Shown here: in pieces, positions 1,348 through 55,216 of the stretch
How positions within the stretch are numbered: position 1 is the first letter of the stretch
Layout of the letters: each line of letters opens with the position of its first letter
Source of the DNA: Membranipora membranacea
Taxonomy: Eukaryota > Bryozoa > Gymnolaemata > Cheilostomatida > Membraniporidae
Direction of reading: 5' to 3'
Assembly (NCBI GenBank): GCA_914767715.1
Contig: OU612073.1
Location: 25,606,001-25,670,000 of the forward strand
DNA: 64,000 bases
The notes under the pieces: model-generated
Told to the model about the DNA's origin: nothing
Database searches by the model: none
The model's input: the letters and a program-made list of their open reading frames with translations, nothing else
Position numbers and translations under genes: made by a program

Positions 1348-4300
1348 GTGTGTATAATTAAACCTGTGACAAGTCGTCCTGCTAACTCAGAGAGATATAT
1401 CGTATGTAAGGGGTTTAAATCCGACCCTGGCAGCATCATCATAGACTATCTAACTCACATAAACCTTAAATTTGACGAAGTTAAGTTTGGATCTGCAACA
1501 CAGCATAAGAAATGTATACAACACATACTTAATATGGACAACATCAAAGGTTAGTCATGAGATAGCGGTCTGCCTCAGTCTGCGATGATGGGAGGATACA
1601 AAATTAACTGACTTCTTCTGTGTCTTTATTTGACTAAAGATATTTATAGCATGCAGAACCTCATTATAAGGTGTATGGTTGAACCTTTTTACTTACACAT
1701 TATTTGGGGTTATCCCCTCAACATCAGAGAGCAGACAATTATCGTGAAATTTGTGAAACTCAACAATAGTTTAGTATTAAATAAAAACTCCAAGACTGCA
1801 TTAGCTAATGCAGGGTATTATTCAATACTACTATGCAGTATGAATCTTACTGTAGCTAAATTTGAAGATGAGATCACTGTTTGGGTGTAATGTAGGATAC
1901 CTGAATATAAGCGTATTGTAAGTAGGTCGCCTGTAAGTAGGTCGCCTATATGTTTGTGTTTAAATTCCAGATGACGAGGATTTCTACAATTATATCTACA
2001 GCTCTAACTGTGAGTTAGGAAAGCAGCAATGTCTCAACCTTAAAAAGATACAAGTGTTTGCGAAAAATCCGAGTCTGCGGGAGACCAGACAGCTTGATAC
2101 AAGAAAGGAGTGTCTCAAATTGTGGAAAGTAAGTCATTCATATCAAAGTGTAAGTGTGTAATGTCAGTATATATAAAATATGAGGTCACGTAAAAACAAG
2201 TCTGAAATTATTGCGAAATTAATATTTATCCAAAGATAAAGATAATATGAAGAAATTGCAAATATAGGAATAGAGCTGGATGTCTTTTGGCTTAACGCAC
2301 CAGAAAAGAACAGAGGGCTGTACAGCTTCTCATAAGGAGATGGATTGTTATATGTGTGGCAGTCGATGCTATACTGTGAGCTCTCAGTGTGTTTATCTTC
2401 ATTACATAGTATTGTTACTTATTCAGGTACCAGATAAGATTCGTACAGCGCCAGAGAGAATGGATCCTTCTACTAAACTTCACTCTCTAATGAAGGACAA
2501 CTCCCTGCCACCTCTGGGAGAATGTGAGATCAGAGATATGGACACTATACAGAAGGAAGTGAAGAGTATATATGACTATAAAGTGTTTATATCTGGTAAG
2601 TGAAGAGTATATATGACTATAAAGTGTTTATATCTGGTAAGTGAAGAGTATATATGACTATAAAGTGTTTATATCTGGTAAGTGAAGAGTATATATGACT
2701 ATAAAGTGTTTATATCCGGTAAGTGAAGAGTATATATGACTATAAAGTGTTTATATCTGGTAAGTGAAGAGTATATATGACTATAAAGTGTTTATATCTG
2801 GTAAGTGAAGAGTATATATGACTATAAAGTGTTTATATCTGGTAAGTGAAGAGTATATATGACTATAAAGTGTTTATATCCGGTAAGTGAAGAGTATATA
2901 TGACTATAAAGTGTTTATATCTGGTAAGTGAAGAGTATATATGACTATACAGTGTTTATATCTGGTAAGTGAAGAGTATATATGACTATAAAGTGTTTAT
3001 ATCTGGTAAGTGAAGAGTATATATGACTATAAAGTATTTATATCCGGTAAGTGAAGAGTATATATGACTATAAAGTGTTTATATCTGGTAAGTGAAGAGT
3101 ATATATGACTATAAAGTATTTATATCCGGTAAGTGAAGAGTATATATGACTATACAGTGTTTATATCTCGTAAGTGAAGAGTATATATGACTAAAGTGTT
3201 TATATCTGGTAAGTGAAGAGTATATATGACTATACAGTGTTTATATCTGGTAAGTGAAGAGTATATATGACTATAAAGTGTTTATATCTGGTAAGTGAAG
3301 AGTATATATGACTATAAAGTATTTATATCCGGTAAGTGAAGAGTATATATGACTATAAAGTGTTTATATCTGGTAAGTGAAGAGTATATATGACTATAAA
3401 GTGTTTATATCTGGTAAGTGAAGAGTATATATGACTATAAAGTGTTTATATCTGGTAAGTGAAGAGTATATATGACTATAAAGTGTTTATATCTGGTAAG
3501 TGAAGAGTATATATGACTATAAAGTGTTTATATCTGGTAAGTGAAGAGTATATATGACTATAAAGTGTTTATATCTGGTAAGTGAAGAGTATATATGACT
3601 ATAAAGTGTTTATATCTGGTAAGTGAAGAGTATATATGACTATACAGTGTTTATATCTGGTAAGTGAAGAGTATATATGACTATAAAGTGTTTATATCTG
3701 GTAAGTGAAGAGTATATATGACTATACAGTGTTTATATCCGGTAAGTGAAGAGTATATATGACTATAAAGTGTTTATATCTGGTAAGTGAAGAGTATATA
3801 TGACTATAAAGTGTTTATATCTGGTAAGTGAAGAGTATATATGACTATAAAGTGTTTATATCTGGTAAGTGAAGAGTATATATGACTATAAAGTGTTTAT
3901 ATCTGGTAAGTGAAGAGTATATATGACTATAAAGTGTTTATATCTGGTAAGTGAAGAGTATATATGACTATAAAGTATTTATATCCGGTAAGTGAAGAGT
4001 ATATATGACTATACAGTGTTTATATCTGGTAAGTGAAGAGTATATATGACTATAAAGTGTTTATATCTGGTAAGTGAAGAGTATATATGACTATAAAGTG
4101 TTTATATCTGGTAAGTGAAGAGTATATATGACTATAAAGTGTTTATATCTGGTAAGTGAAGAGTATATATGACTATACAGTGTTTATATCTGGTAAGTGA
4201 AGAGTACATATGACTATAAAGTGTTTATATCCGGTAAGTGAAGAGTATATATGACTATAAAGTGTTTATATCTGGTAAGTGAAGAGTATATATGACTATA

Positions 4301-7300
4301 AAGTATTTATATCCGGTAAGTGAAGAGTATATATGACTATACAGTGTTTATATCTGGTAAGTGAAGAGTATATATGACTAAAGTGTTTATATCTGGTAAG
4401 TGAAGAATATATATGACTATAAAGTGTTTATATCTGGTAAGTGAAGAGTATATATGACTATAAAGTGTTTATATCTGGTAAGTGAAGAGTATATATGACT
4501 ATAAAGTGTTTATATCTGGTAAGTGAAGAGTATATATGACTATAAAGTGTTTATATCTGGTAAGTGAAGAGTATATATGACTATAAAGTGTTTATATCTG
4601 GTAAGTGAAGAGTATATATGACTATAAAGTGTTTATATCCGGTAAGTGAAGAGTATATATGACTATAAAGTGTTTATATCTGGTAAGTGAAGAGTATATA
4701 TGACTATAAAGTGTTTATATCTGGTAAGTGAAGAGTATATATGACTATAAAGTGTTTATATCTGGTAAGTGAAGAGTATATATGACTATAAAGTGTTTAT
4801 ATCTGGTAAGTGAAGAGTATATATGACTATAAAGTGTTTATATCTGGTAAGTGAAGAGTATATATGACTATACAGTGTTTATATCTGGTAAGTGAGAGTA
4901 TATATGACTATAAAGTGTTTATATCTGGTAAGTGAAGAGTATATATGACTATAAAGTGTTTATATCTGGTAAGTGAAGAGTATATATGACTATAAAGTGT
5001 TTATATCCGGTAAGTGAAGAGTATATATGACTATAAAGTATTCCGATCCGGTAAGCTGCTGATATTATCACAGCCTGGGATGATAGTCTGCTTCATATAG
5101 GTCCTTTAGGCCGATGATCCAAAATTTCATGTAACAAAGACTGCCATTCACAAACATACCTTATTATAAATAAGTTTCATGGTTATATTCTAGTTTTATA
5201 CGATTTGATAGATTGGTAAGACATTATTGGTTTGATCACTTTGATCAATAATATAAAACAAGCAAATACAATCCCGTGTCCAGACACTTTGTCTAGTTAC
5301 CGTGTCAAGTTACCGTAGTAGGGATGTAAACTATTTTAATATACTTGTTTACACCAGGTGTAAGCTTGGTGTCCAGTCCACCGTGTCTCCACTATTACCT
5401 GTCTATGGGTCACTCGATGGTGTTTAAGTGGGATGGTATGTCCTCTCACCAGTGGAGTAGAGTTACAGACGACGAGACGTCACGTCTACAGCTGGACATC
5501 CCTCGGGATTCTCTACTCGTAGGCGAAGTCGTACAGGAGCTTAAGGGTGAAGCTAAGGGACAAAAGTATGTTATCCTGTGCAGAATACCACTTAGTCAAC
5601 CACTGGGGCCCTAGCCATGTCATGTGGCCACTTTGCAAACCAACACCCTTATAGAGCATAATTTCTTCGGCAAGGTGTGATAAACATCTTGCCAATGGTC
5701 GATCATCATATTTTATAATAACTCCAATTTTGAGGATATAACTGATCACATTCAATTACTTTGTGTTCATCCGTGCCTGAGCTTAACTTGACCACTAAAG
5801 ATCAAACCATTAGTTTCTTTTGATCAGAAGCTGCGTCCAGACGTCCAAATGGTCAAATATGATTAAATGTACTCAGATAAAACATAAACATAACTTATGC
5901 AAATCTTACACATCTAGTGCATTATCACAAAGCTCATGGCTGTAGAACTTAACTAAATCACATATTATATAATATTTTCTAAGTATGTGTCCTATTATAG
6001 GAGAATAAACGCTCTACACATCACAGATGTACTGTTTCTATACGGAGAGGATTTCCGACATCACAGTTATAATGTTAGAATGGAGGCAGCTCACCTGTTT
6101 GTGATGTCTATCACTAAGCCGAGTCGTACCCGACTTACTCCTATTAGAGTTAAACAGCTCTACAGAATAGAGGATATACCCACTCTAATATCTACTAACC
6201 TCGGATACAGGTACGGATCAGTATACATGTCCGCTTCAGATTTGTAGATTTTAGAGAGTCATCCAATTATAGTAAATTACCTGTTAGAAGAAGCGGTGAA
6301 AATGTCACCTGACCATATCACCTGACCATATCACCTGACCATATCACCTGACCATATCACCTGACCACATCACCTGACCACATCACCTGACCATATCACC
6401 TGACCATATCACCTGACCATATCACTTGACCATATCACCTGACCATATCACCTGACCACATCACCTGACCACATCACCTGACCACATCACCTGACCATAT
6501 CACCTGACCATATCACCTGACCATATCACTTGACCATATCACCTGACCATATCACCTGACCACATCACCTGACCACATCACCTGACCATATCACCTGACC
6601 ATATCACCTGACCATATCACTTGACCATATCACCTGACCACATCACCTGACCATATCACCTGACCATATCACTTGACCACATCACCTGACCATATCACCT
6701 GACCATATCACCAGATCAGATTTGTAGATTTTAGAGAGTCATCCAATTATAGTAAATTACCTGTTAGAAGAAGCGGTGAAAATGTCACCTGACCATATCA
6801 CCTGACCATATCACCTGACCATATCACCTGACCATATCACCTGACCACATCACCTGACCACATCACCTGACCATATCACCTGACCATATCACCTGACCAT
6901 ATCACTTGACCATATCACCTGACCATATCACCTGACCACATCACCTGACCACATCACCTGACCATATCACCTGACCATATCACCTGACCATATCACTTGA
7001 CCATATCACCTGACCACATCACCTGACCATATCACCTGACCATATCACTTGACCACATCATGTGACCATATCACCTGACCATATCACCTGACCACAGTGG
7101 CTTGTTTTTTGTTTCAGGCTGATAAAAGGTTCTGGAGCAGAACCAAAGCTTTGCTTCACTTATGACATATCCTCATCAGAAAAGGTGTGCCATTCATTCA
7201 AAGGCCTTCACTTCATTCCATATATGAGAAAGCCCTGGACAATGGCTTACAGCCGCAGTAATAAACGTAAATACTTCTATAACATCGAGACTAAAGCTTC

Positions 7301-7466
7301 AATCTTTGAACCAAACAATCAGGCGTTCGCTCCACTTGACTATTCTCTAAAACACAGGATTCTATTCTCTGAGTCCGGCGGTCCAGTCACTAGACCTAAA
7401 CTAGAGAATATGAAGCTAGATATGGATGAGTGGATTAAGGCTATCGCCCCTTGGGTGGCCAGCTAA
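1348..7466 (+). CDS. CMTR1: Cap-specific mRNA (nucleoside-2'-O-)methyltransferase 1, C-terminal 431 residues (partial gene)
   Basis: CMTR1 methylates the ribose 2'-O of the first transcribed nucleotide of capped mRNA (cap-1) in the nucleus. Six exons are read: 1348-1549, 1971-2128, 2427-2595, 5358-5565, 6001-6210 and 7118-7466. Phases agree at every join, giving 431 codons and a TAA stop. The first exon carries KPVTSRPANSERYIVCKG, the end of the RrmJ/FtsJ methyltransferase fold; its KP lysine and SER glutamate match the family's catalytic K-D-K-E set. The next exons give RKECLKLW and VPDKIRTAPE, then FKWDGMSS, QELKGEAKGQ and KPSRTRLTPIRVKQLYRIED, the inactive guanylyltransferase-like part. 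The last exon has KPWTMAYSRSNKRKYFYN, matching the C-terminal WW domain. The length matches the human protein from about residue 400 onward. Odd points: exon 3 runs into a 41-bp junction array, and the last intron is full of 13-bp repeats. The 5' half is outside the window. Confidence 0.93.
2596..5050 (+). repeat. 41-bp tandem array copying the CMTR1 exon-3 end plus its splice donor (about 60 copies)
   Basis: The array starts exactly at the donor of the exon ending at 2595. Each unit consists of GTAAGT followed by the last 35 bases of that exon (GAAGAGTATATATGAC to TATATCTG). Every copy therefore re-creates TCTG|GTAAGT. Copies are near-identical; common variants are CTGG/CCGG and AAAGTG/AAAGTA/ACAGTG, and rare units lack two or three bases. 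Since 41 is not a multiple of three, each added unit shifts the frame, and reading past the first donor meets TGA at once. Just inside the exon, GGAAGTGAAGAG resembles the donor GTAAGTGAAGAG, a short homology that may have seeded the duplication. Confidence 0.95.
6237..7097 (+). repeat. 13-bp tandem repeats (TCACCTGACCATA type) in two near-identical blocks offset by 480 bp
   Basis: In the last CMTR1 intron, a unique stretch of about 55 bases from 6237 followed by 13-bp repeats is repeated from 6717 at an offset of exactly 480 bases. The first roughly 240 bases of the two copies look identical; divergence starts near 6484/6964 (CACATC versus CATATC). Variant units such as CATATCACTTGAC and CACATCACCTGAC recur in the same order in both blocks, so the block was duplicated after the small units had diversified. 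The array lies between the donor at 6211 and the acceptor at 7111-7117. Confidence 0.93.
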
Positions 7467-7768
7467 ATCAGGAACCTAGTCTACAGGCCTCTATTATGTC
7501 ACCAGTGCTAGATGACTACAGTGCCATGATCTGGCCATTAGTGACTCTTACTAAACATTATTCTGTACCGGCGTGGGTATACCGGCGTGGATATACCTGC
7601 GTGCGTGGCCTGGCTCCACAGTATAGACACCCCTCTGTGTGCTCTTACCATATTGAGATGGGCGATGACATAAAAATATGTAAATATTGAGGTAGTCAAC
7701 GTTAATTGGATGTAGATAGTATTACGGAGCACCATTTCTTTGCTAGATGTTTGTATATTTATATTTTT

Positions 7769-7774
7769 ATTAAA
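7769..7774 (+). promoter_or_regulatory. Possible polyadenylation signal ATTAAA of CMTR1
   Basis: The common variant hexamer ATTAAA lies about 300 bases after the CMTR1 stop codon, in T-rich sequence. No AATAAA was seen closer to the stop. The assignment is by position only. Confidence 0.35.
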
Positions 7775-10451
7775 AACTGGAAATCTTACATTACTTATTT
7801 CCTCATATCACACATACCTTCATCATGATTTACCTCAGCAGTACCTTGAAATGACCTTGTAATGGCCATGATACACAGGCTCAAGGCAAGGTACTGCTGA
7901 ACCCAAACTTAAGGAGCGAAAAGCGTTGCATTTTTCGATTGGAATCAAGCTTCAAAATCGTATTAAGGATGGATCTGTAAAATCTCACAATTTGTAAGAA
8001 ATGCATATGCTTCCTTATTCGAGTAGGTCGGGGTGTGAGAAGGCAGGCCTTTGTCAGGCATTAGAGGAAAGCACATTCTCTTTTGCGGCCGAAAACTCAT
8101 CCTACCATTCTTGCACTAAACCCAAAGGGATTTGTTCAGGGTTTAGTTAGTTTATTGTGATGTTCATTGATCTTATCTGGTATTTGCTACCTCAATTCAA
8201 GTTCAATGATGAGAATCCCCAAAGAATTATCAACTCCTTGATCTGTGCAACCTATGAACTCTCGGAGGTGTTTATTGATGCAAGCCAGGTCAATTTGGCC
8301 TGGGAGTTATGGTCCCCTATATATTTGTTTCTCTGTAGCCACTCGAGTATAATTGCTTTTGAGCACTGAGCTCTTCATTAGCTATTCATCGTGATAGAGT
8401 GGCTTTAATTCTGAACAGCTCTATGCTCAAAATTTGCCCTTGACGAAGTGAAAACAAATTGTCTCACTGTTATTCAACTTAAGTTCAGAACACTAGTTCA
8501 ATAAAATAATATACAATGGTATATGACTTAAATCAACATGCTCAAGTAGTGTTACAGTACAATGTTTATTGATAAACACAGGCCTAGTTTTTCCCAGTGG
8601 TTTCAGACATAGATAGGCCAAGGATAGGCTATGTGGTTTGACCCTACCAACTTACTGAGGTTGTGATCTAGTGACATGCACAAGCAATCACATCAGTCAA
8701 CAGAATTATGAGTTGTATTACATTGGAGTGAGCTCACTTTGCCAATTGGTATGATGATGATACCGAGACAATAATCAGCTTGCTAGCTGTCTGGACAAGC
8801 TTTGTTGACAAGCTTGTCAGGACGTGATGCAGGCTTTAATCAAGCAAGAAACAAATGAAACCAAGAAGGTCATGGCATACACATGTATTGGACTTTGGAC
8901 CATTATGAGATTACCATGGTAAAGTCCTGTTTCATTTCAAGAAATTCTGTTGTACAGGTTTCTTGGGTACTAGTCTACCCTTTGCTTCGTTTCAAGAGAA
9001 TGCCATGTGTGTCGATACAGGGAGAATGGTCGATACAATGTTCATACTTCATTTTTTGTCGGTGCGTGCTCTACAACAGTGCGCAAGATGTTGAGCGTTG
9101 TAAAACATGTTGAATGTAGTGCTATATAATTTTAGTGGGTGTGGGATGACCTGTTTCGAGCTGGGATGCAACGACAAATGACTGTGCTAGATTTAGATGG
9201 TATTTATTCAGATACGGTATAGTGAAAATTGAAACTGAATACTTCCACCGACCTGCATTGATCGCTCCCATCCCTCCCCTCCCGTAACCAGAAAATAAGA
9301 TAGCAGCCCACTCATTGACTTCATGGCTACCTTGCAGAAGTATTGCCACACCATATTGACACATATGTTGCCAAAGCCTGTTTTTCATATGCCCTTTTGG
9401 AACAGTACACATTAATTTGGATTAACTTTTGCTCATTTTCTTGATGGAACTGCAACCATGTTGTTACGGTCTAACAAAAGACTCGCCATGCTACAATGCT
9501 GCTGGCTGATTTGCCCTCTGTGTCTTTGGGGGATATGACTATGATTACTGATGGCTCGAGCCAATAGCAAAAGTGAACCAGGACTTCACAAGGTTTGTAG
9601 TGAGTTTCCATTTTAATTACAAAGCAACGAAATGTTAGATCACATGGCCTTATACCGCCATGGACATGGTTTATATGATGACCAAACCACTTAGCCTACT
9701 TAATTGATTCAGTCCCTTTAACTTCTATATGCTATGCTTGCTGATTTACTACAGGAGTATTTTGAAGAGTTGAACTGAAACCTCAGCTACTGATACAGAA
9801 TAGACACAAGACAGCCCTACAGCAGACATTGAGAAAGATAAGGTAACTTAAGTCTTCCAATGTGAGGTAAACTCTGATGTATGTATTAAACTCTATCTTA
9901 AACCACTGCTGACAGGCAAATGTGTGCTCATTGGATTCTGTATGGCTCAAAACTAATATCATGAGGCTGCAATCTCTGCATTGTCACCTAATGGGAAAAT
10001 AATTTGGAGCTATACTGAATTTGATCAGCACTATTTTGCTTGAGTGGCAGCAGTAGTTTAAGTTATCAAGTTGATGTTTCAACATCGTCGCACAGAGGTA
10101 CTTGTCAGCCAGTGAAATGGATGAGTACAAATGAGTAAATGATTTGCTTATCGCTGTTCTTCTTAGCCCATAGGTCGACAAAATCATCAATATCTATTGA
10201 GCTGTCAAGACTTTGACACTTCTCGCATGTGCTCCGGTTATAAGTCAACGCTAAGGTTTTTCTGTAATTTTGCTGTATGCAATGTCTCAGTGGACAGTAT
10301 GTCTAGTTTGTTTACTGATTTGATAGAAATGTATTTGGTTTGAATCACAAGATCCATCTTAGTTCTGAGATAGAGACATATTGGTGCTTTAACGATGCAG
10401 TCCCTCTCTTTGACACCAAGTTGATCTCAGTTTATTTGATGGTTGTTTCAG
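7775..10451. other. Intergenic sequence, no gene recognised
   Basis: Short open frames here show no family features and no plausible splice structure. Two small inverted repeats are visible: a 14-base perfect stem near 7832-7900 (TCAGCAGTACCTTG and its complement, loop about 40) and a 9-base stem near 8115-8151 (ACTAAACCC / GGGTTTAGT). The promoter and a 5' untranslated exon of the next gene probably lie in the right part, since its first coding exon begins at an acceptor (GTTTCAG, 10445-10451). Confidence 0.5.
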
Positions 10452-13318
10452 CTGGTATAACATGGAAACTGAGGAAGGGCCACCTCCATCATATGATGTA
10501 GCTATAGCACAAGTAGGCATTTCTCCTCCTTACGAGGGGTTAGGAGTCGCGCCCACTCCTCATACTGACCAGACCAATGAGGGACACGATGTGAACATTA
10601 CCTTCAGCAACACTGGTTAGTCAAACTAATACAGATATTAGTAGGATAGTGTATAGTAGGTAAACTTATAAATATCACACAGACTACTGAGGTATCACTA
10701 GCAAGCTCCAGGTAGAATGAGTAATTATTGTGATTATCAATATACAATGTGTAGAATTCACACCAGCAGGTGATGGTGAATGCTTACACTATTACAGCTG
10801 ACATCACATGTCTAACACGTTAAAGTCACTTTGAGCGATAGTAATCACGAGTTTCCTCTACTTTTTGCCTCAAGGCGTTGTTCACATTTTGACGTTAGTG
10901 GGCTATGATTTCTGTAGGTCTAACATTGTGACTCATTTATTATAGAGCCTCCAAAGTATGATACACTATACCCGGCGGATACAGAGCCGGGTACAGAGCC
11001 GGGTACAGAGCCGGGTACAGAGCCGGGTACAGAGCCGGGTACGGAGCCGGGTACGGAGCCGGGTACGGAGGAAGGGTCGGTTGAGCCCACACACATTGAT
11101 GACACAGTACCTCGTGATGATAGTCGAGTACCTGACAATCCCCCTCAGCCATCCTCAGCCTCTAGTTGGTGTGACTGCTGGGATAATCTATGCAGTATTG
11201 AGTGCTGCAGTGAGCCTTCCCGACCAGACTGTGATTGTACTATATCTAGTGAGTACAAGGCTTCATGTTTTAATTTTTGTGGTTATCTCAATACAATTAA
11301 ACTACATTATGAACCATGATAATATGTCAGAGATCATGACATCATATGTGAGATCTTGACATGTACCCTACAGAATACGCTATCATCCTCTTGGCACTCC
11401 CCATTGTTATAACCATACAGTCCTACAGCTCCTGGAATTCTCAGCACCACATGATAGTGTCTGTGTCCTGACAACTCTTCAAATTTGGTTTACTTAAACT
11501 GTTATTGTCTCACTGGGATATCAGCTCAGCTCAAAAGAAGGCGAAACCGCCTTTCTACAACTGACTGATCCTCTTCCGCATAGTTGGCAACGACTGAAAG
11601 CTGCCTGAACTGAACTGGTATTGTGGGATTGATATCATATGCTACATATCAACCCAAGATTAACAAAAATCACCCGCACATTATATTTTTGCTAGGACCA
11701 CATTGTGACAACACAGTATATCATACTGTATTGTCGCAATGTGTCCTAGCCAAAATTTACTTTGCCACAGTAATCATGTTGCATTGGTACATTGGGAGAG
11801 TTATAGTATTGGGCGGTATCAATACCAGTCATCCGTTAGAAGTTAGTGAGATTAGCAGTGAGAACTTTACACCAAAGAGTCTATTGTCCTCGTTAGGCAA
11901 TACAGGCTTCTATCACTCTACTTGTTTGGTTCAACATGTAGACATAATTTACTGACAATGTTTCTCTTCATTGTGTTTCAGAGAAGATTCTCTTTCTCAG
12001 TATTACTGTATTTGTGTTTGTGACGAGTATCTCTAGTATCTGTGTCCGTAAGTACTAAATATACTTAATTCATCGATACCTATTCATGCTTTAGAGTAAC
12101 ATATTCAATCTGTTCATGCCTTTGAAATGTATATTCCAAACTGGTCAAAATCTGGCAGTCAAGACAATTAACGTTTTTTGCTTAAATTGATATAGTTGCA
12201 GTTTCTGGTATACCTTGTGACAAAGCGCATTACCTACCATATATCCTGCTCTATGACATATATACCCGTTATTGTTATATACAGGGTTTAGTTTCTCATG
12301 TTCCGGATGTGATTTACTGGAGACAGTCCTCGTAGCTTCCGGAGGATCTGGTTTAGTTATCTCTGGTGTTATGGTTGTCACTTACTTCAAGTCGACTACA
12401 CATACATTTCAGGAATGTCAAATGAAGAACTGCGGAGTTTTTACACTTATACCACAGATTGTGTACCTCTGCTCTGCTGCGCTCGGTGAGTCTTTGTGTA
12501 CCTATGCTCTGCTGTGCTCGGTGAGTCTTTGTGTACCTCTGCTCTGCTATGCTCGGTGAGTCTTTGTGTACCTCTGCTCTGCTGCGCTCGGTGAGTCTTT
12601 GTGTACCTATGCTCTGCTATGCTCGGTGAGTCTTTGTGTACCTCTGCTCTGCTGTGCTCGGTGAGTCTTTGTGTACCTCTGCTCTGCTGCGCTCGGTGAG
12701 TCCTTGTGTACCTCTGCTCTGCTGTGCTCGGTGAGTCTTTGTGTATCTCTGCTCTGCTATGCTCGGTGAGTCTTTGTGTACCTCTGCTCTGCTGCGCTCG
12801 GTGAGTCTTTGTGTACCTATGCTCTGCTGCGCTCGGTGAGTCTTTGTGTACCTCTGCTCTGCTGCGCTCAGTGAGTCTTTGTGTACCTCTGCTCTGCTGC
12901 GCTCGGTGAGTCTTTATGTACCTCTGCTCTGCTGTGCTCGGTGAGTCTTTGTGTACCTCTGCTCTGCTGCGCTCGGTGAGTCTTTGTGTACCTCTGCTCT
13001 GCTGCGCTCGGTGAGTCTTTGTGTACCTCTGCTCTGCTGCGCTCGGTGAGTCTTTGTGTACCTCTGCTCTGCTGCGCTCGTCGAGTCTTTGTGTACCTCT
13101 GCTCTGCTATGCTCGGTGAGTCTTTGTGTACCTCTGCTCTGCTGCGCTCGGTGAGTCTTTGTGTACCTCTGCTCTGCTGTGCTCGGTGAGTCCTTGTGTA
13201 CCTATGCTCTGCTGCGCTCGGTGAGTGCTTCAGTCCTGCAGTTCAGTAATTTTTCCTTCTCATTCTTGTATTAGACCTAAGAAGGCCAAGGAAAACTCTT
13301 ACGTTGTCATTGACTTAA
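10452..13318 (+). CDS. Small multi-pass membrane protein with two PPxY motifs (255 residues, five exons)
   Basis: I do not recognise the family. Exons are 10452-10615 (ATG at 10462), 10946-11248, 11982-12047, 12285-12485 and 13275-13318, all joined in phase 1. The N-terminal half is acidic and Pro-rich, with PPSY (in EEGPPPSYD) and PPKY (in EPPKYDTLYP), then seven TEPG repeats. A Cys cluster follows (WCDCWDNLCSIECC ... CDC). Exon 3 encodes one hydrophobic helix (ILFLSITVFVFVTSISSICV). Exon 4 encodes a second (LLETVLVASGGSGLVISGVM) and perhaps a third near its end. The tail is basic (DLRRPRKTL). PPxY motifs are known ligands of Nedd4-type WW domains, so a membrane adaptor for ubiquitin ligases is a reasonable inference; the three-helix PPxY layout recalls NDFIP without clear homology. 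Exon 4 ends in a 35-bp junction array, so the exon-5 join is less certain. Confidence 0.6.
10979..11068 (+). repeat. 12-bp coding repeat (TEPG) in exon 2 of the PPxY membrane gene
   Basis: About seven copies of ACAGAGCCGGGT (or ACGGAGCCGGGT) read Thr-Glu-Pro-Gly in the frame of the gene. The unit is a multiple of three, so changes in copy number would keep frame. The last copies use ACG instead of ACA and the array ends in GAGGAAGGG. Confidence 0.85.
11685..11756. repeat. Near-perfect palindrome / long hairpin
   Basis: Two arms of about 34 bases are inverted complements with about three mismatches and one indel, around a loop of only a few bases (core ACAGTATATCATACTGT). The left arm contains GCTAGGACCACATTGTGAC and the right arm GTCGCAATGTGTCCTAGC. 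It lies in the second intron of the PPxY membrane gene. It could be a short foldback element or an RNA hairpin; the very short loop fits a palindrome better than a typical microRNA precursor. Confidence 0.8.
12457..13227 (+). repeat. 35-bp tandem array copying the end of exon 4 plus its splice donor (about 22 copies)
   Basis: The first unit is the exon end itself (GTGTACCTCTGCTCTGC to GCGCTCG), followed by GTGAGTCTTT. Each later unit repeats this, giving about 22 CTCG|GTGAGT donors. Variants are GCTGCG/GCTGTG/GCTATG, CTCT/CTAT and one CTCGTCGAG that destroys a donor (about 13078-13085). The unit is not a multiple of three, and splicing beyond the first donor shifts frame. Confidence 0.93.
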
Positions 13319-13610
13319 TTTCCCGTTGTCAGAATAATATGCCGAAAATTGTTTATGGTATAAATATATCTACTGGTAGCGCTTGGGGTGGTTGATAACA
13401 TATAATGTAAAATGACAAACAAGTTTGAGCCATTTCTTTGTCAGGGTTCCTCACACTTTATTGTCTTTATATCATCGCTCTGAAAGTTATTTACCTGTAG
13501 ATCACAGTCTCATATGTTCCCTTTTACTTCACCAAATATTTGTCATTATCCTGTGCAGCTTTGAGTACTTAATGGTTTAGTCCCACTACCCCCCCCCCCC
13601 GTCCCCTCCC

Positions 13611-13806
13611 AATGTACTCCCAGTTACCTCCCAATATACTCCCAGGTACCTCCCAATATACTCCCAGGTACCTCCCAATATACTCCCAGGTACCTCCCAA
13701 TATACTCCCAGGTACCTCCCAATATACTCCCAGGTACCTCCCAATATACTCCCAGGTACCTCCCAATATACTCCCAGGTACCTCCCAATATACTCCCAGG
13801 TACCTC
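13611..13806. repeat. 21-bp tandem array (CCCAGGTACCTCCCAATATA type), about nine copies
   Basis: Nine nearly perfect 21-bp units follow a C run. Because the unit is a multiple of three without stops, all six frames are open over about 200 bases and give meaningless repeat peptides. Each unit contains CCAG|GTACCT, which looks like a weak donor, but no exon precedes it. Treated as noncoding. Confidence 0.93.
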
Positions 13807-14132
13807 CTTTGAGAGGGTGCAACTGCTGTGCATTGTACTCGCCTTCCCTAAATATAAGATAATATATAGCTTTTTATGTTAAAGCTTAATTATGAAGGCG
13901 TTCTTTTGTATTACACCTTATTCTCCATATTTGATTCCATCATGTGATCTAGTTTTAGCCTTGGAATCCTAATGTTGAGGAAGTAATGATCTCTCAAACT
14001 TTCGAGGTTATCGCCGTTGATCTGAATCGGGAATCTGTTGATGTTGCCCGTACTATGTCACAGCACTTCATATCTAATTGAATATGTTATACCAATAAAA
14101 TCGTAGATAAATTGATGATCAAAATGTACTGT

Positions 14133-14203
14133 GCAGGCGGGAATCAACCGCGGCCTTAGGGATCAGCAGTCATGGATAGTACCACTGCACCGTGAGGATC
14201 AGA
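14133..14203 (-). repeat. tRNA-like sequence (tRNA pseudogene or head of a tRNA-derived SINE)
   Basis: On the minus strand this reads TCACGGTGCAGTGGTACTA, an A-box-like stretch, then GCGGTTGATTCCCGC, a B-box with a matching T-stem. The spacing between the boxes is shorter than in a normal tRNA and I could not fold a complete cloverleaf, so a pseudogene or SINE head is more likely than a working tRNA gene. Confidence 0.45.
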
Positions 14204-15567
14204 TTTAAAGGTAATATGAAATGGATAAATGCTAAAATAATGCAAATGACAGGCTCATCTCATTGGCTTTTTAAATTTCCTTCAGATTATGTTTGTATGT
14301 TAAAATTGTAATCCTTTTGTGATATTTCTACATGACTCCATGGTGTGGTCTCTATGACTGCTTACCCATTTTGGCCTCCGTTGATTCCTGCCTGCACCCT
14401 ACATTTTTATCATCTTATATCTTATTATTATAACATACTCATTATAGATATGACGTGTTGTGACCTAGTATATTTTACATTAGCTGATTCCCAATTCCGA
14501 TTGACGGCTGTCACCTTAAAAATTTTAAGAGACCATAACTTCCTCAATATAAGAATTGTAATTCTTAACCTTGCTTACATGATAGAATAGAGTAAGGAGA
14601 ATAAGATGTGATACAGGAGTTCAGAAGATCGAATTCAGATAAATGGAGTGATACGTGCTACATTTATTGACTTTGAGTGGTCAATAATAGAAAGTATGGT
14701 AAACCTTGGTTTAAGTGATAAAACTATTGTGTGCCCTAATGTCTCAAGAAACTCCTACAATAGCAGCAGCGCCTTTTAGGTTATACCCGCTAATAATGAA
14801 ACAACAATTTAATGTTTTTGAATTTTATGCCTTCCCATAAAATTCAAATATAAAATTGTTTGCACAGCAACATTTCCTCTACGAATCCCAAAAATAATGA
14901 GAAGTTCTGCCGGGGACGTGTTCACGACTGATGCACTAGGAAAATCGAATTATTTTACGATCTGTCACACAACATCTGGAAAACATAAAATCTATTTACT
15001 ACAAACCCAATTTAATGAATACAAATTATATGGGACAGACTTTTGACCACTTTAAGATGATTTTGTGGTTTTGACGCAATTTGATGGCTGCAAAAGATAA
15101 TCGTCCTGCATTGTAATATTTATATCAATTCTCGATAACATCAAGTATTTTTTACACCTGCCATCTATTGATTGATCAGAATTGAACATAAAACACAGGT
15201 TGATGGAAAAAAATGTGCTTAGATGTAAGGCTGGAAAAACTCAATATGAATCGCTTCTGCCCGAAATTGGGATAAATCCTATCATAGTTTACTGTATAAT
15301 TTTGTAAGATGATAAATATATGCAATTTAGAGGTTTAGTTTAAAAGAATATATATCCGCATCCCATGCAACGCTCCAATAATGGAAAAGTTTTATAGGCT
15401 TGCTCTGATATACACACATATATATGTACAACATTGTAAAAGGAGACTAAGATACCGATGTTAGATAGATAGGTAGATGTGTGAGTAGAATACTTATAAA
15501 CTGTGAGACAGTGTGGTATATCTACTACTGTCAGACCTGAGGTAATATCACCACGTCTGGGCTCAGG

Positions 15568-15718
15568 GGGTTACTCAGTCTCTAACTCAGGGGGTTACTC
15601 AGTCTCTAACTCAGGGGGTTACTTAGTCTCTAACTCAGGGGGTTACTCAGTCTCTAACTCAGGGGGTTACTCAGCCTCAATGAGCTACTCAGCATCAGGG
15701 GGTTACTCAGTCTCTAAC
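15568..15718 (+). repeat. 24-bp tandem repeat that could encode GGYSVSNS
   Basis: Five to six units of GGGGGTTACTCAGTCTCTAA type stand just downstream of the minus-strand lectin stop codon. On the plus strand they read Gly-Gly-Tyr-Ser-Val-Ser-Asn-Ser in an open frame from about 15503 to 15796. No clear exon boundaries or neighbouring coding exons support translation. On the lectin strand the array would fall in the 3' untranslated region or beyond. Confidence 0.7.
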
Positions 15719-15856
15719 TCATCCACCACTGCCGTCAGAACTAATGTCATCTTAGTACAGCATTTTTTGAGAGGCGCTGGCTTCTCTTTGGCATAAAACA
15801 TTCCATATGCAATATGGGGTAGAGAGAAATAGAAAAAGTTTAAGGGTCTCGTTAGT

Positions 15857-18800
15857 CTACAGATCAAACTGACAGACGTAGTATCTGGACCAAGAACAAG
15901 TCCTATCGGTGAGTCCAGGTCTAGATTGAGCTCCATCATCAGCACAATACACCTGGGGGTAGTTACCGCGAGGGTGGCTAGGCGCTGACCCGTACCAACT
16001 ATCAGTGTATCCCAGACTACTGCCATCTAACCACAGCCAATCAGAGAAGCCGGTATCATCTATCAGTCCTATCCAATAGTCGGATCTATAGACTGTGAAA
16101 TATTAACTAAATATAGAAACAAAATCATATATGTGTGTTTCAGTAAATATGCTACACTGATTCGATAACATTAAAACCCTAAAGCATGCAAGGTCAAACA
16201 AAATATATATTGACAAACCAAGGAGTTAAAGACATGGACAAACCTAACCGGACTTGACAAACCTTCCACTCTCCGTGGCTGCCATTTATTCTAAACAACT
16301 GCATAAGATATATTCACATTACTTGCATAAAGCAGTTTGTTTTTTTATTTTCTCACTTAGTATGATATTTAAATTTGCTACATACTTTCATCAGTTTGAG
16401 AAGACCTCATGCTATGATATACTTGAAGTTGAGCTTGTGTAGGGAAGGTGGCTAACTGCCCGCCTTTATTAACACAATTAGTCCTTGCAGTTGTCCAAGG
16501 TACTGAAGTATGCTCAAAGAGATAACACACACCGGCATCCAAATCAGCAAACTGTTCATCAACACATGCTAGAACTGAGAGAGTAAACATTGTATACATT
16601 CATACCTACATGTGTACATACCTATAACATACATACGTACATATGTACATACACATGTATGTACATATGTACACATCTATATACATATATACATATATAC
16701 AGTTGTGTAATACATACGTACGTTTGTACATACACATGTATGTACATATGTACACATCTATATACATATATACATATATACAGTTGTGTAATACATACGT
16801 ACGTTTGTACATACACATGTATGTACATATGTACACATCTATATACATATATACAGTTGTGTAATAATGTCTCTATATACATAAAGTTCAGATGTTGGAA
16901 ATCAATGAAAATTAATGATAAATTAGATAAACTTGACTCGTTGTCATGTTGACACACTAGCAGGTTTAGGGTTTAAGGTCGGCCCATCAGATATGAGTAC
17001 ATATGTTTTATGCCTCCAGCTCTAAGCCTGATAGATCATGCGATCACTTTATATGACTCACTGCACAATATATACAGGCTAAATAACATGTGGTCGCAAA
17101 GATGCCACATTGCGACCAGATCTCAATGTCGTATTGTTGTATCTCAGTGTTGTATTTAAAACTAAATGTTGGCTATTATATACAAGCCGGTAAAATCCCT
17201 CAAGCAGCAGCGAGTATAAGTTCTAGACTGCTGGTTATTATGTTATGAGAGATGTATTTGCTACGTATTGAGTTTTGACTATGCAATTTTTCACCAAGTA
17301 CCGGTCTTTTCCCTCAAAATAATCAAGAACTAAATATTCATGGCGATAATTGATCGATTAGATATGTAAACCTCCCCTTTACACCTACACTACGTATCAG
17401 TGTATTGGTATACTCACATGTGTATGACAGGGAGGAGACAGTTCCCCCTCCAGCGGGTAATCTAGTACAGTCTATCAGTGTATGGGTATACTCACATGAG
17501 TATGACAGGGAGGAGACAGTGCCCCCTCCAGCGGGTAATCTAGTACTTTCTATCAGTGTATGGGTATACTCACATGAGTATGACAGGGAGGAGACAGTGC
17601 CCCCTCCAGCAGGTAATCTAGTACTTTCTATCAGTGTATGGGTATACTCACATGAGTATGACAGGGAGGAGACAGTGCCCCCTCCAGCAGGTAATCTAGT
17701 ACTTTCTATCAGTGTATGGGTATACTCACATGAGTATGACAGGGAGGAGACAGTGCCCCCTCCAGCGGGTAATCTAGTACAGTCTATCAGTGTATGGGTA
17801 TACTCACATGCGTATGACAGGGAGGAGACAGTGCCCCCTCCAGCGGGTAATCTAGTACAGTCTATCAGTGTATGGGTATACTCACATGCGTATGACAGGG
17901 AGGAGACAGTGCCCCCTCCAGCGGGTAATCTAGTACTTTCTATCAGTGTATGGGTATACTCACATGCGTATGACAGGGAGGAGACAGTGCCCCCTCCAGC
18001 GGGTAATCTAGTACTTTCTATCAGTGTATGGGTAAACTCACATGAGTATGACAGGGAGGAGACAGTGCCCCCTCCAGCGGGTAATCTAGTACAGTCTATC
18101 AGTGTATGGGTATACTCACATGAGTATGACAGGGAGGAGACAGTGCCCCCTCCAGCGGGTAATCTAGTACTTTCTATCAGTGTATGGGTATACTCACATG
18201 CATATGACAGGGAGGAGACAGTGCCCCCTCCAGCAGGTAATCTAGTACTTTCTATCAGTGTATGGGTATACTCACATGAGTATGACAGGGAGGAGACAGT
18301 GCCCCCTCCAGCGGGTAATCTAGTACTTTCTATCAGTGTATGGGTATACTCACATGCATATGACAGGGAGGAGACAGTGCCCCCTCCAGCAGATAATCTG
18401 GTACTTTCTATCAGTGTATGGGTATACTCACATGAGTATGACAGGGAGGAGACAGTGCCCCCTCCAGCAGGTAATCTAGTACAGTCTATCAGTGTATGGG
18501 TATACTCACATGCGTATGACAGGGAGGAGACAGTGCCCCCTCCAGCGGGTAATCTAGTACTTTCTATCAGTGTATGGGTATACTCACATGCATATGACAG
18601 GGAGGAGACAGTGCCCCCTCCAGCGGGTAATCTAGTACAGTCTATCAGTGTATGGGTATACTCACATGCGTATGACAGGGAGGAGACAGTGCCCCCTCCA
18701 GCGGGTAATCTAGTACAGTCTATCAGTGTATTACTGCCTGACAGCTGGCATTGTCTGCTATCACTGTTATATGTCACCGATAGACAGTTGGGATCAGCCA

Positions 18801-19219
18801 TACATATATCACTACACACTATCAGCGATCTGACATCCTTTATTATCTGGTATACTTGGCTAACACATTGCTGCCTGTCCACCGGCAGCGTCTTGACCTG
18901 TAATAGGATTTCATTAATAACACAACCAAAATAATCATCAGACCTCTTCACAAAGAGAGTCAAGAAGGACCGCTCTATGATATCAATCAATTATTGGTAT
19001 GTGTAGAAATTTGTACAGATTATAATACCAGAAATATCGAATCGTAAGGATATTTATAATGTCAATGTTTTGTGTTACCAGCATGAATAACAGAAGTGAA
19101 ATATGTCGAAGTATTAAATAATATGATAAATGCACGATAAAGTATCTTGCCTTGGGTGTAGCGAGTGCGGGGTAGAATAAACAAACAGAGGATAGAAATA
19201 AGATCTTAGAACGCTCCAT
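15857..19219 (-). CDS. Secreted PAN/apple + C-type lectin domain protein, copy 1 (four exons, 241 residues with the first donor)
   Basis: Exons in transcript order are 19219-19151, 18897-18666, 16574-16386 and 16092-15857. Exon 1 gives a signal peptide (MERSKILFLSSVCLFYPALA) and appears to use a GC donor (AAG|GCAAGA). Exon 2 gives a six-Cys PAN/apple-like module (QQCV, CSDICMADPNC, QCQLSG, DCTRLPAGGG). Exons 3 and 4 form one C-type lectin fold: CYLF, WTTARTNCVNKGGQLATFP, YWIGLIDD, WLWLDG and CSWSRYYVC, then TAG. The phases 0-1-1 match the + strand copy at 46228-54465. The sugar/calcium motif EPN or QPD is missing (SHP at that place), as is WND, so classical calcium-dependent sugar binding is unlikely. 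Exon 3 has two possible acceptors six bases apart. Exon 2 runs into the 78-bp junction array, so longer forms with extra 26-residue blocks are possible. Confidence 0.82.
16640..16862. repeat. 81-bp repeat of ACATGTAT/GTACATATGT palindromes, about three copies
   Basis: Three copies of an 81-bp unit made of alternating purine-pyrimidine, self-complementary words (ACATGTATGTACATATGT, TATATACATATATACA). It lies in the second intron of the minus-strand lectin, just before its exon-3 acceptor. Both strands are open in several frames, which I take as a by-product of composition. Confidence 0.9.
17400..18726 (-). repeat. 78-bp tandem array of the lectin exon-2 end plus its splice donor (17 copies)
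   Basis: On the lectin strand each unit contains the end of the PAN exon (TRLPAGGGTVSSLSY), the donor CAT|GTGAGT and a short intron piece (ATACCCATACACTGATAG). The 17 units are nearly identical. Because 78 is 26 codons and the intron piece has no stop, the frame stays open through the whole array as repeats of LPAGGGTVSSLSYSCEYTHT with alternating IDC/IES and YAC/YSC. The first copy is the functional exon; any later donor would keep frame and add a block of 26 residues. The opposite strand is also open over about 1.5 kb. Confidence 0.95.
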
Positions 19220-19863: not shown

Positions 19864-22800
19864 ATGAATATCTCTACTAGTGTATGATGATACGTCTATC
19901 TCTACTAGTGTATGATGGTATGTCTATCTCTACTAGTGTATGATGGTATGTCTATCTCTACTAGTGTATGATGGTATGTATATCTCTACTAGTGTATGAT
20001 GGTATGTATATCTCTACTAGTGTATGATGGTATGTCTATCTCTACCAGTGTATGATGGTATGTATATCTCTACTAGTGTATGATGGTATGTCTATCTCTA
20101 CTAGTGTATGATGGTATGTATATCTCTACTAGTGTATGATGGTATGTATATCTCTACTAGTGTATGATGGTATGTCTATCTCTACTAGTGTATGATGGTA
20201 TGTCTATCTCTACTAGTGTATGATGGTATGTCTATCTCTACTAGTGTATGATGGTATGTCTATCTCTACTAGTGTACGATGGTATGTCTATCTCTACTAG
20301 TGTATGATGGTATGTATATCTCTACTAGTGTATGATGGTATGTCTATCTCTACTAGTGTATGATGGTATGTCTATCTCTACTAGTGTATGATGGTATGTA
20401 TATCTCTACTAGTGTATGATGGTATGTCTATCTCTACTAGTGTATGATGGTATGTCTATCTCTACTAGTGTATGATGGTATGTCTATCTCTACTAGTGTA
20501 CGATGGTATGTCTATCTCTATTAGTGTATGATGGTATGTCTATCTCTACTAGTGTATGATGGTATGTATATCTCTACTAGTGTACGATGGTATGTCTATC
20601 TCTACTAGTGTATGATGTTATGTCTATCTCTACTAGTGTATGATGGTATGTCTATCTCTACTAGTGTATGATGGTATGTCTATCTCTACTAGTGTATGAT
20701 GGTATGTCTATCTCTACTAGTGTATGATGGTATGTCTATCTCTACTAGTGTATGATGGTATGTCTATCTCTACTAGTGTACGATGGTATGTCTATCTCTA
20801 CTAGTGTATGATGTTATGTCTATCTCTACTAGTGTATGATGGTATGTCTATCTCTACTAGTGTATGATGGTATGTCTATCTCTACTAGTGTACGATGGTA
20901 TGTCTATCTCTACTAGTGTATGATGTTATGTCTATCTCTACTAGTGTATGATGGTATGTCTATCTCTACTAGTGTATGATGGTATGTCTATCTCTACTAG
21001 TGTATGATGGTATGTCTATCTCTACTAGTGTATGATGGTATGTCTATCTCTACTAGTGTATGATGGTATGTCTATCTCTACTAGTGTATGATGGTATGTA
21101 TATCTCTACTAGTGTACGATGGTATGTCTATCTCTACTAGTGTATGATGGTATGTCTATCTCTACTAGTGTACGATGGTATGTCTATCTCTACTAGTGTA
21201 TGATGGTATGTCTATCTCTACTAGTGTATGATGGTATGTCTATCTCTACTAGTGTATGATGGTATGTCTATCTCTACTAGTGTATGATGGTATGTCTATC
21301 TCTACTAGTGTATGATGGTATGTCTATCTCTACTAATGTATGATGGTATGTATATCTCTACTAGTGTATGATGGTATGTCTATCTCTACTAGTGTACGAT
21401 GGTATGTCTATCTCTACTAGTGTACGATGGTATGTCTATCTCTACTAGTGTATGATGGTATGTCTATCTCTACTAGTGTATGATGGTATGTCTATCTCTA
21501 CTAGTGTATGATGGTATGTCTATCTCTACTAGTGTACGATGGTATGTCTATCTCTACTAGTGTATGATGGTATGTCTATCTCTACTAGTGTATGATGGTA
21601 TGTCTATCTCTACTAGTGTATGATGGTATGTCTATCTCTACTAGTGTATGATGGTATGTCTATCTCTACTAGTGTACGATGGTATGTCTATCTCTACTAG
21701 TGTACGATGGTATGTCTATCTCTACTAGTGTATGATGGTATGTCTATCTCTACTAGTGTATGATGGTATGTCTATCTCTACTAGTGTATGATGGTATGTC
21801 TATCTCTACTAGTGTATGATGGTATGTCTATCTCTACTAGTGTATGATGGTATGTCTATCTCTACTAGTGTATGATGGTATGTCTATCTCTACTAGTGTA
21901 TGATGGTATGTCTATCTCTACTAATGTATGATGGTATGTCTATCTCTACTAGTGTACGATGGTATGTCTATCTCTACTAGTGTATGATGGTATGTCTATC
22001 TCTACTAGTGTATGATGGTATGTATATCTCTACTAGTGTATGATGGTATGTCTATCTCTACTAGTGTATGATGGTATGTCTATCTCTACTAGTGTATGAT
22101 GGTATGTCTATCTCTACTAGTGTATGATGGTATGTCTATCTCTACTAGTGTACGATGGTATGTATATCTCTACTAGTGTATGATGGTATGTATATCTCTA
22201 CTAGTGTATGATGGTATGTCTATCTCTACTAGTGTATGATGGTATGTCTATCTCTACTAGTGTATGATGGTATGTATATCTCTACTAGTGTATGATGGTA
22301 TGTATATCTCTACTAGAGTATGATCGTATGTCTATCTCTACTAGTGTATGATGGTAAGTATATCTCTACTAGTGTACGATGGTATGTCTATCTCTACTAG
22401 TGTATGATGGTATGTCTATCTCTACTAGTGTATGATGGTATGTATATCTCTACTAGTGTATGATGGTATGTATATCTCTACTAGAGTATGATCGTATGTC
22501 TATCTCTACTAGTGTATGATGGTATGTATATCTCTACTAGTGTATGATGGTATGTATATCTCTACTAGTGTACGATGGTATGTCTATCTCTACTAGTGTA
22601 CGATGGTATGTCTATCTCTACTAGTGTATGATGGTATGTCTATCTCTACTAGTGTATGATGGTATGTATATCTCTACTAGTGTATGATGGTATGTCTATC
22701 TCTACTAGTGTATGATGGTATGTCTATCTCTACTAGTGTATGATGGTATGTCTATCTCTACTAGTGTATGATGGTATGTCTATCTCTACTAGTGTATGAT

Positions 22801-49200: not shown

Positions 49201-52200
49201 GTATGTGTATATGAGTATGTGTATATGAGTATGTGTATATGAGTATGTGTATATGAGTATGTGTATATGAGTTTGTGTATATGAGTAGGTGTATATGAGT
49301 ATGTGTATATGAGTATGTGTATATGAGTATGTGTATATGAGTATGTGTATATGAGTATGTGTATATGAGTATGTGTATATGAGTTTGTGTATATGAGTTT
49401 GTGTATATGAGTAGGTGTATAGTAGTATGTGAGCAGCACATTTCTGACAATTTTTCGTTTTGTAGACTCTGACCTCAGTTGTTGAGAAGGAGCTGTGTGT
49501 TAACCCAGACGAGCTCTATAGGGCCATGTGGGATGTAGCATCTCTTATGATCTGCAGCTCTCTATGTCTGCAAGACTTAGAATGCTCAGCTGTCACATAC
49601 TATCCAGCACCTGCCAATCTGTGTCAGATGTCTTCCCATAACACCCTACACAGTTGTGACCATCTTAGCTCAGGTGGTGGCACTATCTCTTCTCTTCATT
49701 TCGATGATACTGGTGAGTTTTAGAGGCTTTGGTGTTCACCCCTACAGCAGGTAAACTGTCTCATCTCAGCTTTGGTATGATACGAACTGTAAATATACAT
49801 CGAACAAAACTCTGTTCTCAGCCAATGTACAGGCGATATGTGATTGAAAATTATCAATGCCTATACTATGTAATCCAGTGTATTGGAATATCATCAAAGG
49901 AATATTAGCTCTGTCTTTGTTTTCAGATTCAATTATTTTTTATTCATTTAATTCAGAGTTAGAAGAGGAGTCAGAAGTACACTATGTTTTATCTGCAGCT
50001 AAGACTACATGGCACACAGCAAACCTGAGCTGTACCTCAGGGGGTGGGGATTTGGCAACCTTCCCTACTGCACAAAAGTTCACTGATTTCCTTAATATAC
50101 GCTTCAGTAATATCTCTTATGAGCTAGGTAGGTAGAATGGTGTGCATCCTTGGGAAACCACACAAAAAATCAAAACTAAAATAAAGTTCATTGTTTGTGT
50201 GTTAAAAGCATCCTCGTATGTATTATGTAAACCACATCAGAACAAATTATCTGTGACTCTAAAATTGTACCATCAAGCTTGAACGATATAAACTCTACAT
50301 TTAAAGCCATCCAATACATTTCACCTAAGACAGTACACTTATATATACACTGAAAACTCTAAGTCTGGCTGATGAATTTAATCAAAATATATTTAATGAT
50401 GAAATTGTTGAGATTACAAGTTGTTCGCCCGATGAAAAGTTATCTAACTCTCCTTACTTGTAGTACTTATATCTTAAAGGGCAACCAGGGTTTCAAACAA
50501 CTTTTCATTGATTAATAGCAGATTGCACCTTGTGCAAAGGGAACAATACAAAATCTAATTCGGATGATTATTTAGCCAGAATGCTTATGAAACATTTCAT
50601 CCATTAGGTACTCAACATCAGCTAAATGGAATACCACAGAGCAGTTTCCTGTTCCTGTTATTATTTAGCCTGTGCTCTATCATCATAACAGCAATGTCTT
50701 GGAACCTCCCCTATACTGAAGTGTTACAGACCTTAGAGTCAGCAACTACTTTGAGTTTTGCATCGCGCAATGCACAAAGCTGATGCTGCCTAGCACATTC
50801 TTTACTACCCATTGCATTGCTGCGAAACCTTGGTTGCCCTTTAATCTATTATTTATGATTTTAATACCGATTCTCTTGTCGAATGATCGAAAAACTGACC
50901 CCAAATTATGATGAACCAAACTTTCATTTTATTGTATCTAAGAATCCTGTTTTGTTCTTCACAAATCATCATTTTTCTTGGAAAGAGTCAGTAAGAATAC
51001 AATGAATAAATGGTTGAATGAATAGATGGTCAATCAATTTTTTCTAAAACTTTATTGGCATAACATTCTCTCATTAGAATGCTTTTCAAAATCAGCCCAT
51101 CAAGAAAAAAAGGGGGAAATATTCGATCAAGATGTAAAAAAGATAATCAGAAAATAACCATTGGATTATTTATGCTTGATAGTGAACATAAAAAATGGGT
51201 TTATTGTTAAAAGCGGATGCTATAATATTATCCGCAGAAGTAGGATGTTGCTTAAACATGCCTCTCGGAATGAAGTTGGGTGGAAAATAAAAGCATTCCA
51301 GCAAAAGTGGTCTGGTTTGGATACTAATTCATCAAACAAGTTAAGATATAGGAAAATAAAAATATCAGAGCGAAGTGGTGATGAGGCCTACATGCGCAAC
51401 AGCTTTGACAATGTCGCAGGTAGTCGAGGCGCAAAGCCAAATTGCCATACTGATTTCAGGTTGTATGTATGTATGTAGCTTTATTTCGACCATAAAACCA
51501 TTTAGATGAGGTGACATTCAAGATTACCATTATACGTCTTCTGGTATAAAAAAATGGAGAGAGGGTCAAAAGTAAAAGGAAAAATAATTTTCTGAAATAG
51601 AAAAGTTGTGAATCTTAACAGCCAGAAGAGGGGACCTATAATAGCGTGCCTTGTGGGGTGCCATGTTTAGTCTTCAGGCTCGAGCTGGTATGTGAGCCAA
51701 GCTGTACACGTTGTGTGCGCTCTGAGAGAGAGCTATGTACGATAGACACTAGATTCTTGTTGGTACAGAGCTCAGCCAGCTTCTCTACTAGTTTTGATTT
51801 GTCCATCCTGTCAAATGCCTTTGTCATGTCCAAAAAACCTACTGGGATGGGTTTGGCATTTGGTTGATCTAACATTTCAGGTTGTCAGGCAGCTTTTCCA
51901 CAGTGCCGCCATTTGATATGTGACCCTTCGTTGACTTGAACTTGATTTGGAATTGGGGAGATTTATGTTAGATGAGCAAGTGTTATAGAAATGTTTGGAA
52001 TGATGGTGAAAATTAGAGGAGTGAAATGTTTTATGGGCACATATTAATGTTTTAAATTCATAAAGCTCATTAATCCTTAAAATATGTGATTTAATAAAAA
52101 GTGGAGTGGATGAAGCTTAATCTTTCTGATTTCTAAATGATACTAACAATTTTGTTGTTGAAACAACAGTATCTTATTGGTATGGGTTGCTGCTGCATTG

Positions 52201-55215: not shown

Positions 55216-55216
55216 A

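Follow-up and report, generated by a model that had tools for sequence, protein, structure and literature searches.

Donor-spanning minisatellites on exon ends in the genome of Membranipora membranacea, with a probable donor-linked bias

Tandem arrays whose repeat unit spans a 5' splice site recur on coding exon ends in the genome of the bryozoan Membranipora membranacea (assembly GCA_914767715.1). We describe them from a window of 64,000 nucleotides (contig OU612073.1, here C9, positions 25606001-25670000), in which a CMTR1 gene, a PPxY membrane-protein gene and a minus-strand lectin gene each carry such an array, and from scans of the whole 339-Mb, 18-contig genome. Our data suggest that these arrays are donor-spanning minisatellites, which probably arose as tandem duplications of exon ends with a bias linked to the donor, and in which the first donor is probably the one used.

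Results

A sequence-only reading of the window had reported arrays with units of 41, 35 and 78 bp in the three genes, and all three are confirmed at the places it gave (Table 1), each unit joining the end of a coding exon to the first bases of the intron. Its donor numbers, about 60, 22 and 17, are close to our counts of 61 (60 GGTAAG and one CGTAAG), 21 intact GTGAGT with one destroyed copy, and 17 (GTGAGT in 17 of 17 units). Tandem Repeats Finder delimits the arrays at 2557-5039 (60.7 copies), 12459-13226 (21.9 copies) and 17395-18731 (17.1 copies) with 94-97% matches; they are thus head-to-tail, near-identical units in the size range of minisatellites (about 10-100 bp). The reading had also held that each array begins exactly at the exon end; the first unit does cross the junction, but the arrays start 39-41, 27 and 66-70 nt inside their exons. 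The exonic copy is identical to the array consensus in the 41- and 35-bp arrays and departs from it at five places in the 78-bp array.

In CMTR1, the exon end at 2595 coincides with a block conserved among homologs as [FY]DY....G, the phase runs on from this exon into the next one, and the frame stays open through donor 1 only, of 61. A second exon of the same gene lies outside the window, within the contiguous 144 kb that we read around it (C9:25576001-25720000, loci L022-L029 plus the window); Ostrea CMTR1 aligns as far as the end of this exon at L026 7916 and resumes in the next exon, and the frame is open for donors 1-2 of its 23-bp array. The putative end of the PPxY exon at 12485 is placed by frame and phase only; this frame is open for donors 1-3 of the 21, of which donor 1 alone also matches the phase of the proposed last exon. 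A homolog search with the PPxY gene returned six weak matches, apparently of low complexity or due to chance, of which none was informative. The same gene contains an in-frame 12-bp coding repeat (PGTE) at window positions 10976-11070.

The joined lectin protein matches Pfam PAN_1 (E 8.5e-8) and Lectin_C (E 5.2e-16). All 17 of its donors are in frame and open, in a frame of 550 amino acids, and judging from the frames, donor choice could lengthen the stretch between the PAN domain and the C-type lectin domain in steps of 26 residues. This gene also offers a comparison with relatives. The lectin query is matched up to residue 55-76 of 77 by PAN exons from other parts of the genome, and a GTRAG donor lies near the corresponding exon end in 15 of 17 paralogs (two are without one), while no donor array was present in any of the 17 (361-461 bp read in each). 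A paralogous PAN exon, 42% identical to that of the lectin, lies within the window and serves as an internal control (Table 1).

Table 1. Donor arrays, their exons and related features (window positions unless a locus is named)
Feature	Position	Strand	Remarks
CMTR1 coding exon	2427..2595	+	70 CMTR1 homologs; contributes its final 39 nt to the 41-bp unit
41-bp donor array	2557..5052	+	61 GT donors; first GT 2596, last 5051
Next CMTR1 exon	5358..5565	+	acceptor (5357) about 300 bp past the array end (5052)
PPxY exon	12285..12485	+	putative, by open frame and phase; contributes its final 27 nt to the 35-bp unit
35-bp donor array	12459..13226	+	21 intact GTGAGT donors; first GT 12486
Proposed last PPxY exon	13445..13500	+	putative, read by eye; G/GG TTC CTC ... 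TAG, hydrophobic C-terminus
78-bp (26-codon) donor array	17395..18731	-	17 GTGAGT donors; first GT 18665
Lectin PAN-domain exon	18666..18897	-	contributes its final 66-70 nt to the 78-bp unit
Paralogous PAN exon	49466..49712	+	single donor, no array there
Second CMTR1 exon	L026 7752-7916		exon end coincides with the first donor of a 23-bp array, 17.8 copies
Cys-rich gene array	L023 6130-5871	-	27 bp, 9.6 copies; begins within an open frame whose start resembles a signal peptide
29-bp array	L026 8974-9586		21 copies; sense-strand GTGAGT, inside a CMTR1 intron
Short 4-donor array	L026 1143-1341	-	donors CAAG or CGAG followed by GTAAGTTA, about 50-60 bp apart

Ten of the 13 donor arrays that we examined lie on exon ends, six of them with support from homology (CMTR1 twice, the lectin, BRR2, the IP3 receptor and an asparagine-synthase-family gene) and four placed only by an open frame or by phase (PPxY, the Cys-rich gene and the loci L047 and L049). 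The 13 comprise the six GTRAGT-bearing arrays of the 144 kb, the short 4-donor array at L026 1143-1341 and six arrays on contig C1. The Cys-rich gene has no Pfam match, and the frame at its 27-bp array is open for donor 1 only. In the ten exon-end arrays the unit has an exon-like part of 15-66 nt and an intron part of 2-21 nt, the former exceeding the latter in nine units (sign test, 0.011). The periods modulo 3 are 2, 2, 2, 0, 0, 1, 2, 0, 1 and 2, leaving seven of the ten out of frame. Beyond the donor motif and the adjacent bases, the ten units resemble one another only at chance level, which bears out the view of the sequence-only reading that a recurrent process, and not one repeat family, is at work. 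Across the 41-, 35- and 78-bp arrays, variable columns make up 5 of 21 in the donor and 29 of 133 in the rest of the unit, and single mismatches occur in 5 of 686 donor cells vs 95 of 3829 others. The U1 duplex energy of the array donors is -9.4 to -11.7 kcal/mol in CMTR1 and PPxY (-8.2 in the last 41-bp copy) and weaker in the lectin (-7.5 kcal/mol) and the Cys-rich gene (-6.9 kcal/mol).

Three candidate features of the breakpoints were set aside. A fixed intronic breakpoint near +8 was suggested by a first alignment of five C9 cases (8, 0, 8, 8 and 7 nt) and dissolved into 2-21 nt in the stricter alignment of ten. An inverted repeat seen by eye beside the 23-bp array, GTACTTAC facing GTAAGTAC, is absent from the four other C9 cases. 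Slippage on the short homology AAGTGAAGAG, as the earlier reading had envisaged, fails as well; the word is simply the start of the repeat unit and shares only AAG with the intron after the last copy.

The arrays read on contig C1 were six, chosen for exon-like units out of 18 clusters (of 20), and five of them begin at the end of an open frame. At BRR2/SNRNP200, 52 of 52 residues align with the human protein, ending at the same LQG; a further array sits on an exon end of the IP3 receptor, identified by homology. A third lies on an exon of a protein, probably ASNSD1, that is assigned to the asparagine-synthase family by a Pfam match (E 8e-4) just short of the curated cutoff. The arrays at L047 and L049 stand at the ends of open frames without a name.

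The placement of the arrays was compared with chance expectation, first within the 144 kb on C9. Of the 40 arrays there (at least 3 copies, period at least 10, score at least 80), six bear GTRAGT, where random local segments would lead one to expect 1.39 (P=0.002), and the reversed motif is found in two, vs 2.05 expected. Among 17 listed donors, a list that is incomplete, five fall within the first unit of an array where 0.15 would be expected, and none of 20,000 placements reaches five, a result weakened by the fact that three of the five hits (PPxY, the lectin and the Cys-rich gene) are donors found through their arrays. None of 15 listed acceptors falls within any first or last array unit in the 144 kb. 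Three entries of the combined list were displaced by 1-2 bases, which left the result unaffected. With CMTR1 only, whose exons are defined by homology, arrays hit two of ten donors and none of ten acceptors.

A genome-wide scan for three GGTRAGT words with 15-45 bases between them, controlled by the same motif read backwards and thus resting on motifs rather than annotated splice sites, gave 2182 matches (1070+1112) vs 316 (136+180), about a sevenfold excess. The two 7-mers are about equally frequent in non-array sequence (85 vs 92 in 308 kb), and some 2 triplets are expected by chance in the genome. Triplets of CAGGTAAGT numbered 63 vs 0, in 15 clusters by our own count, from C1 to C9. Acceptor triplets (TTTYCAG) show no such excess genome-wide (103 vs 107 backward), though the acceptor word is the commoner one in unique sequence. 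The first 100 GGTRAGT-triplet matches listed extend to C1:33.74 Mb and fall into 20 distinct donor clusters; over C1:0-33.74 Mb the backward control gives 3 clusters (one overlapping a donor cluster) and the acceptor 1. Allowing for common units, about 17 of the donor clusters are independent by our own count. The first 2 Mb of C1, 6% of the span, hold seven of the 20. The lack of genome-wide enrichment at donors that would have refuted the earlier reading is thus not what the motifs show.

Two further repeats in the window were recorded. A 19-kb array at 19869-38984 has a 28-bp unit in 683 copies containing GGTATGT, a weaker donor-like word, and begins about 20 bp past a GTAAGT at about 19850, a possible exon end. 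At 51460-56880 there are what look, by eye only, like pieces of a LINE-like reverse transcriptase element.

Discussion

Our results show that the end of an exon and the start of its intron have been tandemly duplicated independently at each locus, to as many as 61 copies. The 5'-most donor would normally be used, as the frames and conservation suggest; the mRNA would then be unaltered, the extra copies being intronic and spliced out, and even genes with essential roles elsewhere could tolerate an array. We infer use of the first donor because seven of the ten periods are off the triplet frame and because in the CMTR1 exon the frame stays open through donor 1 alone, of 61. In the 1980s, experiments with duplicated donors reportedly favoured the upstream site.

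The arrays are commoner on 5' splice sites than expected from unique sequence, and acceptors are not enriched. Part of this asymmetry is probably due to tolerance: duplication of a donor would leave the first copy working, but in a duplicated acceptor the first AG would be followed by exon sequence. However, tolerance cannot raise the number of arrays above the background rate, and a donor-linked bias in duplication or expansion would therefore also be needed. Such a bias would most likely be mutational, acting co-transcriptionally on 5' splice sites that are bound by U1 or paused, with greater strength toward chromosome ends; a co-transcriptional mutational origin is favoured over selection because the donor columns are as variable as the rest and the genes share no evident common function. 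One specific form of this process, in which a U1-bound or paused nascent transcript at an active 5' splice site would lead to DNA being re-copied from within the exon to just past the donor consensus, seeding repeats genome-wide, including at BRR2, itself a spliceosome gene, is a possibility that we put forward tentatively.

The main competing account needs no donor-linked process. Arrays might land anywhere in a minisatellite-rich chromosome-end region, and those on donors might survive through their first donor. The setting is a suitable one: C9 terminates at 25,735,955, which puts the window at a distance of 66-130 kb from that terminus, and the 144 kb hold 40 arrays with a score of at least 80, vs 10, of which 5 reach 80, in a 200-kb comparison sample (C1:5.0-5.2 Mb, L002-L021). 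A high density of minisatellites near telomeres is well known. Chance and tolerance only would nevertheless predict the 1.39 donor-bearing arrays and 0.15 exon-end hits given above, where six and five are seen, and would leave the roughly sevenfold genome-wide excess over an equally frequent control motif to be accounted for; we consider this account unlikely. We regard it as more doubtful still that multiple donors were selected for, many U1 sites making splicing stronger, holding back premature polyadenylation or increasing expression. The strong U1 duplex energies of the CMTR1 and PPxY array donors, the retention of GT in 61 of 61, 21 of 22 and 17 of 17 copies and the lower mismatch rate of donor cells would fit with selection, but the donor columns are as variable as the others, and the difference between cells may reflect inherited variants counted repeatedly. 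In addition, several donors have been lost from the 27-bp array, off-triplet periods would make the use of internal donors costly, and the identified genes have no function evidently in common.

Two further explanations are highly improbable. A dispersed repeat or transposon carrying a donor and inserted at exon ends could explain the few clusters with common units (C1 1.89 and 10.37 Mb; C1 33.57-33.74 Mb); in the ten exon-end arrays, however, each unit holds the sequence of its own exon and is like the others only in the donor and neighbouring bases, so that membership in a dispersed repeat or introner family appears mostly refuted for them. Just as hard to credit is intron gain through the tandem duplication of an exon segment that carries AGGT. 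Duplications that cross exon-intron boundaries are a known raw material for it, according to a passage of PMC4974935, but in such a gain both splice sites would derive from the duplicate, and the acceptor of the CMTR1 intron (5357) lies outside the array, which ends at 5052. Of the two loci examined, CMTR1 and the lectin, the latter refutes intron gain directly; its intron is present in paralogs that have no array, and the intron is therefore older than its array.

Several observations weigh against a donor-linked bias with use of the first donor, our preferred reading. For three of the 13 donor arrays no coding exon end is recognised at the site: the 29-bp array, which is inside a CMTR1 intron in sense orientation; the short array at L026 1143-1341, whose donors are apparently antisense to a plus-strand frame; and the array at L052 on C1, which has stops in its upstream frames and may be non-coding. 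A 15-bp repeat of two copies with GTAAGT, at window positions 1917-1947, likewise lies within a CMTR1 intron, off the exon end. The 200-kb C1 sample has 10 arrays (score at least 50) and none with GTRAGT. The five-in-six rate of exon ends on C1 is biased upward by the choice of exon-like units, the genome-wide match counts are inflated by long arrays, and backward motifs are imperfect controls in a comparison based on motifs. Units are shared across loci on C1, at 33.57, 33.65 and 33.74 Mb and at 1.89 and 10.37 Mb, perhaps in paralogous genes that inherited the array. The lower number of single mismatches in the donor can be explained by shared ancestry of the copies or could reflect selection. 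The success of the first donor is itself deduced from frames and conservation, and our data as a whole are compatible with mutational bias, selection or preferential expansion alike. Just before the 29-bp array stand an acceptor-like TTTTGCAG and an open stretch of 40 nt, which would throw CMTR1 out of frame; this may be a poison exon.

A minisatellite supplying several splice donors has been described in one human gene, IFI6 (6-16), where downstream units are used as donors and give isoforms, according to a passage of PMC4526556; the paper of 1995 is also cited in PMC2572611 and PMC3618361. The sequence-only reading held that a mechanism tied to the junction would be new to its knowledge, a view that this precedent in a single gene corrects. 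Similarly to IFI6, as far as the passage describes it, the unit of our ten arrays holds a splice donor and begins on an exon end; in contrast to it, many unrelated genes are involved here, with larger, unrelated units, up to 61 donors and periods mostly out of the triplet frame. The minisatellite that Turri, Cuin and Porter described in 1995 is said to have a unit of 12 bp. We found no report of a recurrent, donor-specific class of arrays across a genome among the openly licensed papers searched, and within that literature such a class appears new. In unit length, near-identical copies and crowding toward the chromosome end (C1, C9), the arrays resemble subtelomeric minisatellites and variable-number tandem repeats, from which they differ in being donor-specific with an exon-derived unit. 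They share tandem duplication across a boundary with the cases in the passage of PMC4974935 and differ from these in that existing introns here gain long arrays at their 5' ends. Chicken MUC2 and earthworm metallothionein were considered as precedents and, going by excerpts of the sources, are not the same thing.

The rows of near-identical donors at fixed spacing, as in CMTR1 and BRR2, make a long-standing question, the choice of a 5' splice site among equals, readable by long-read RNA in one species. If our interpretation is true, each locus would be a natural experiment in which the spliceosome has to single out the first donor from a row of as many as about 60 nearly identical ones. The arrays also show one way for introns to lengthen at the 5' end, and the birth or growth of a minisatellite tied to a splicing signal would connect RNA processing with DNA instability.
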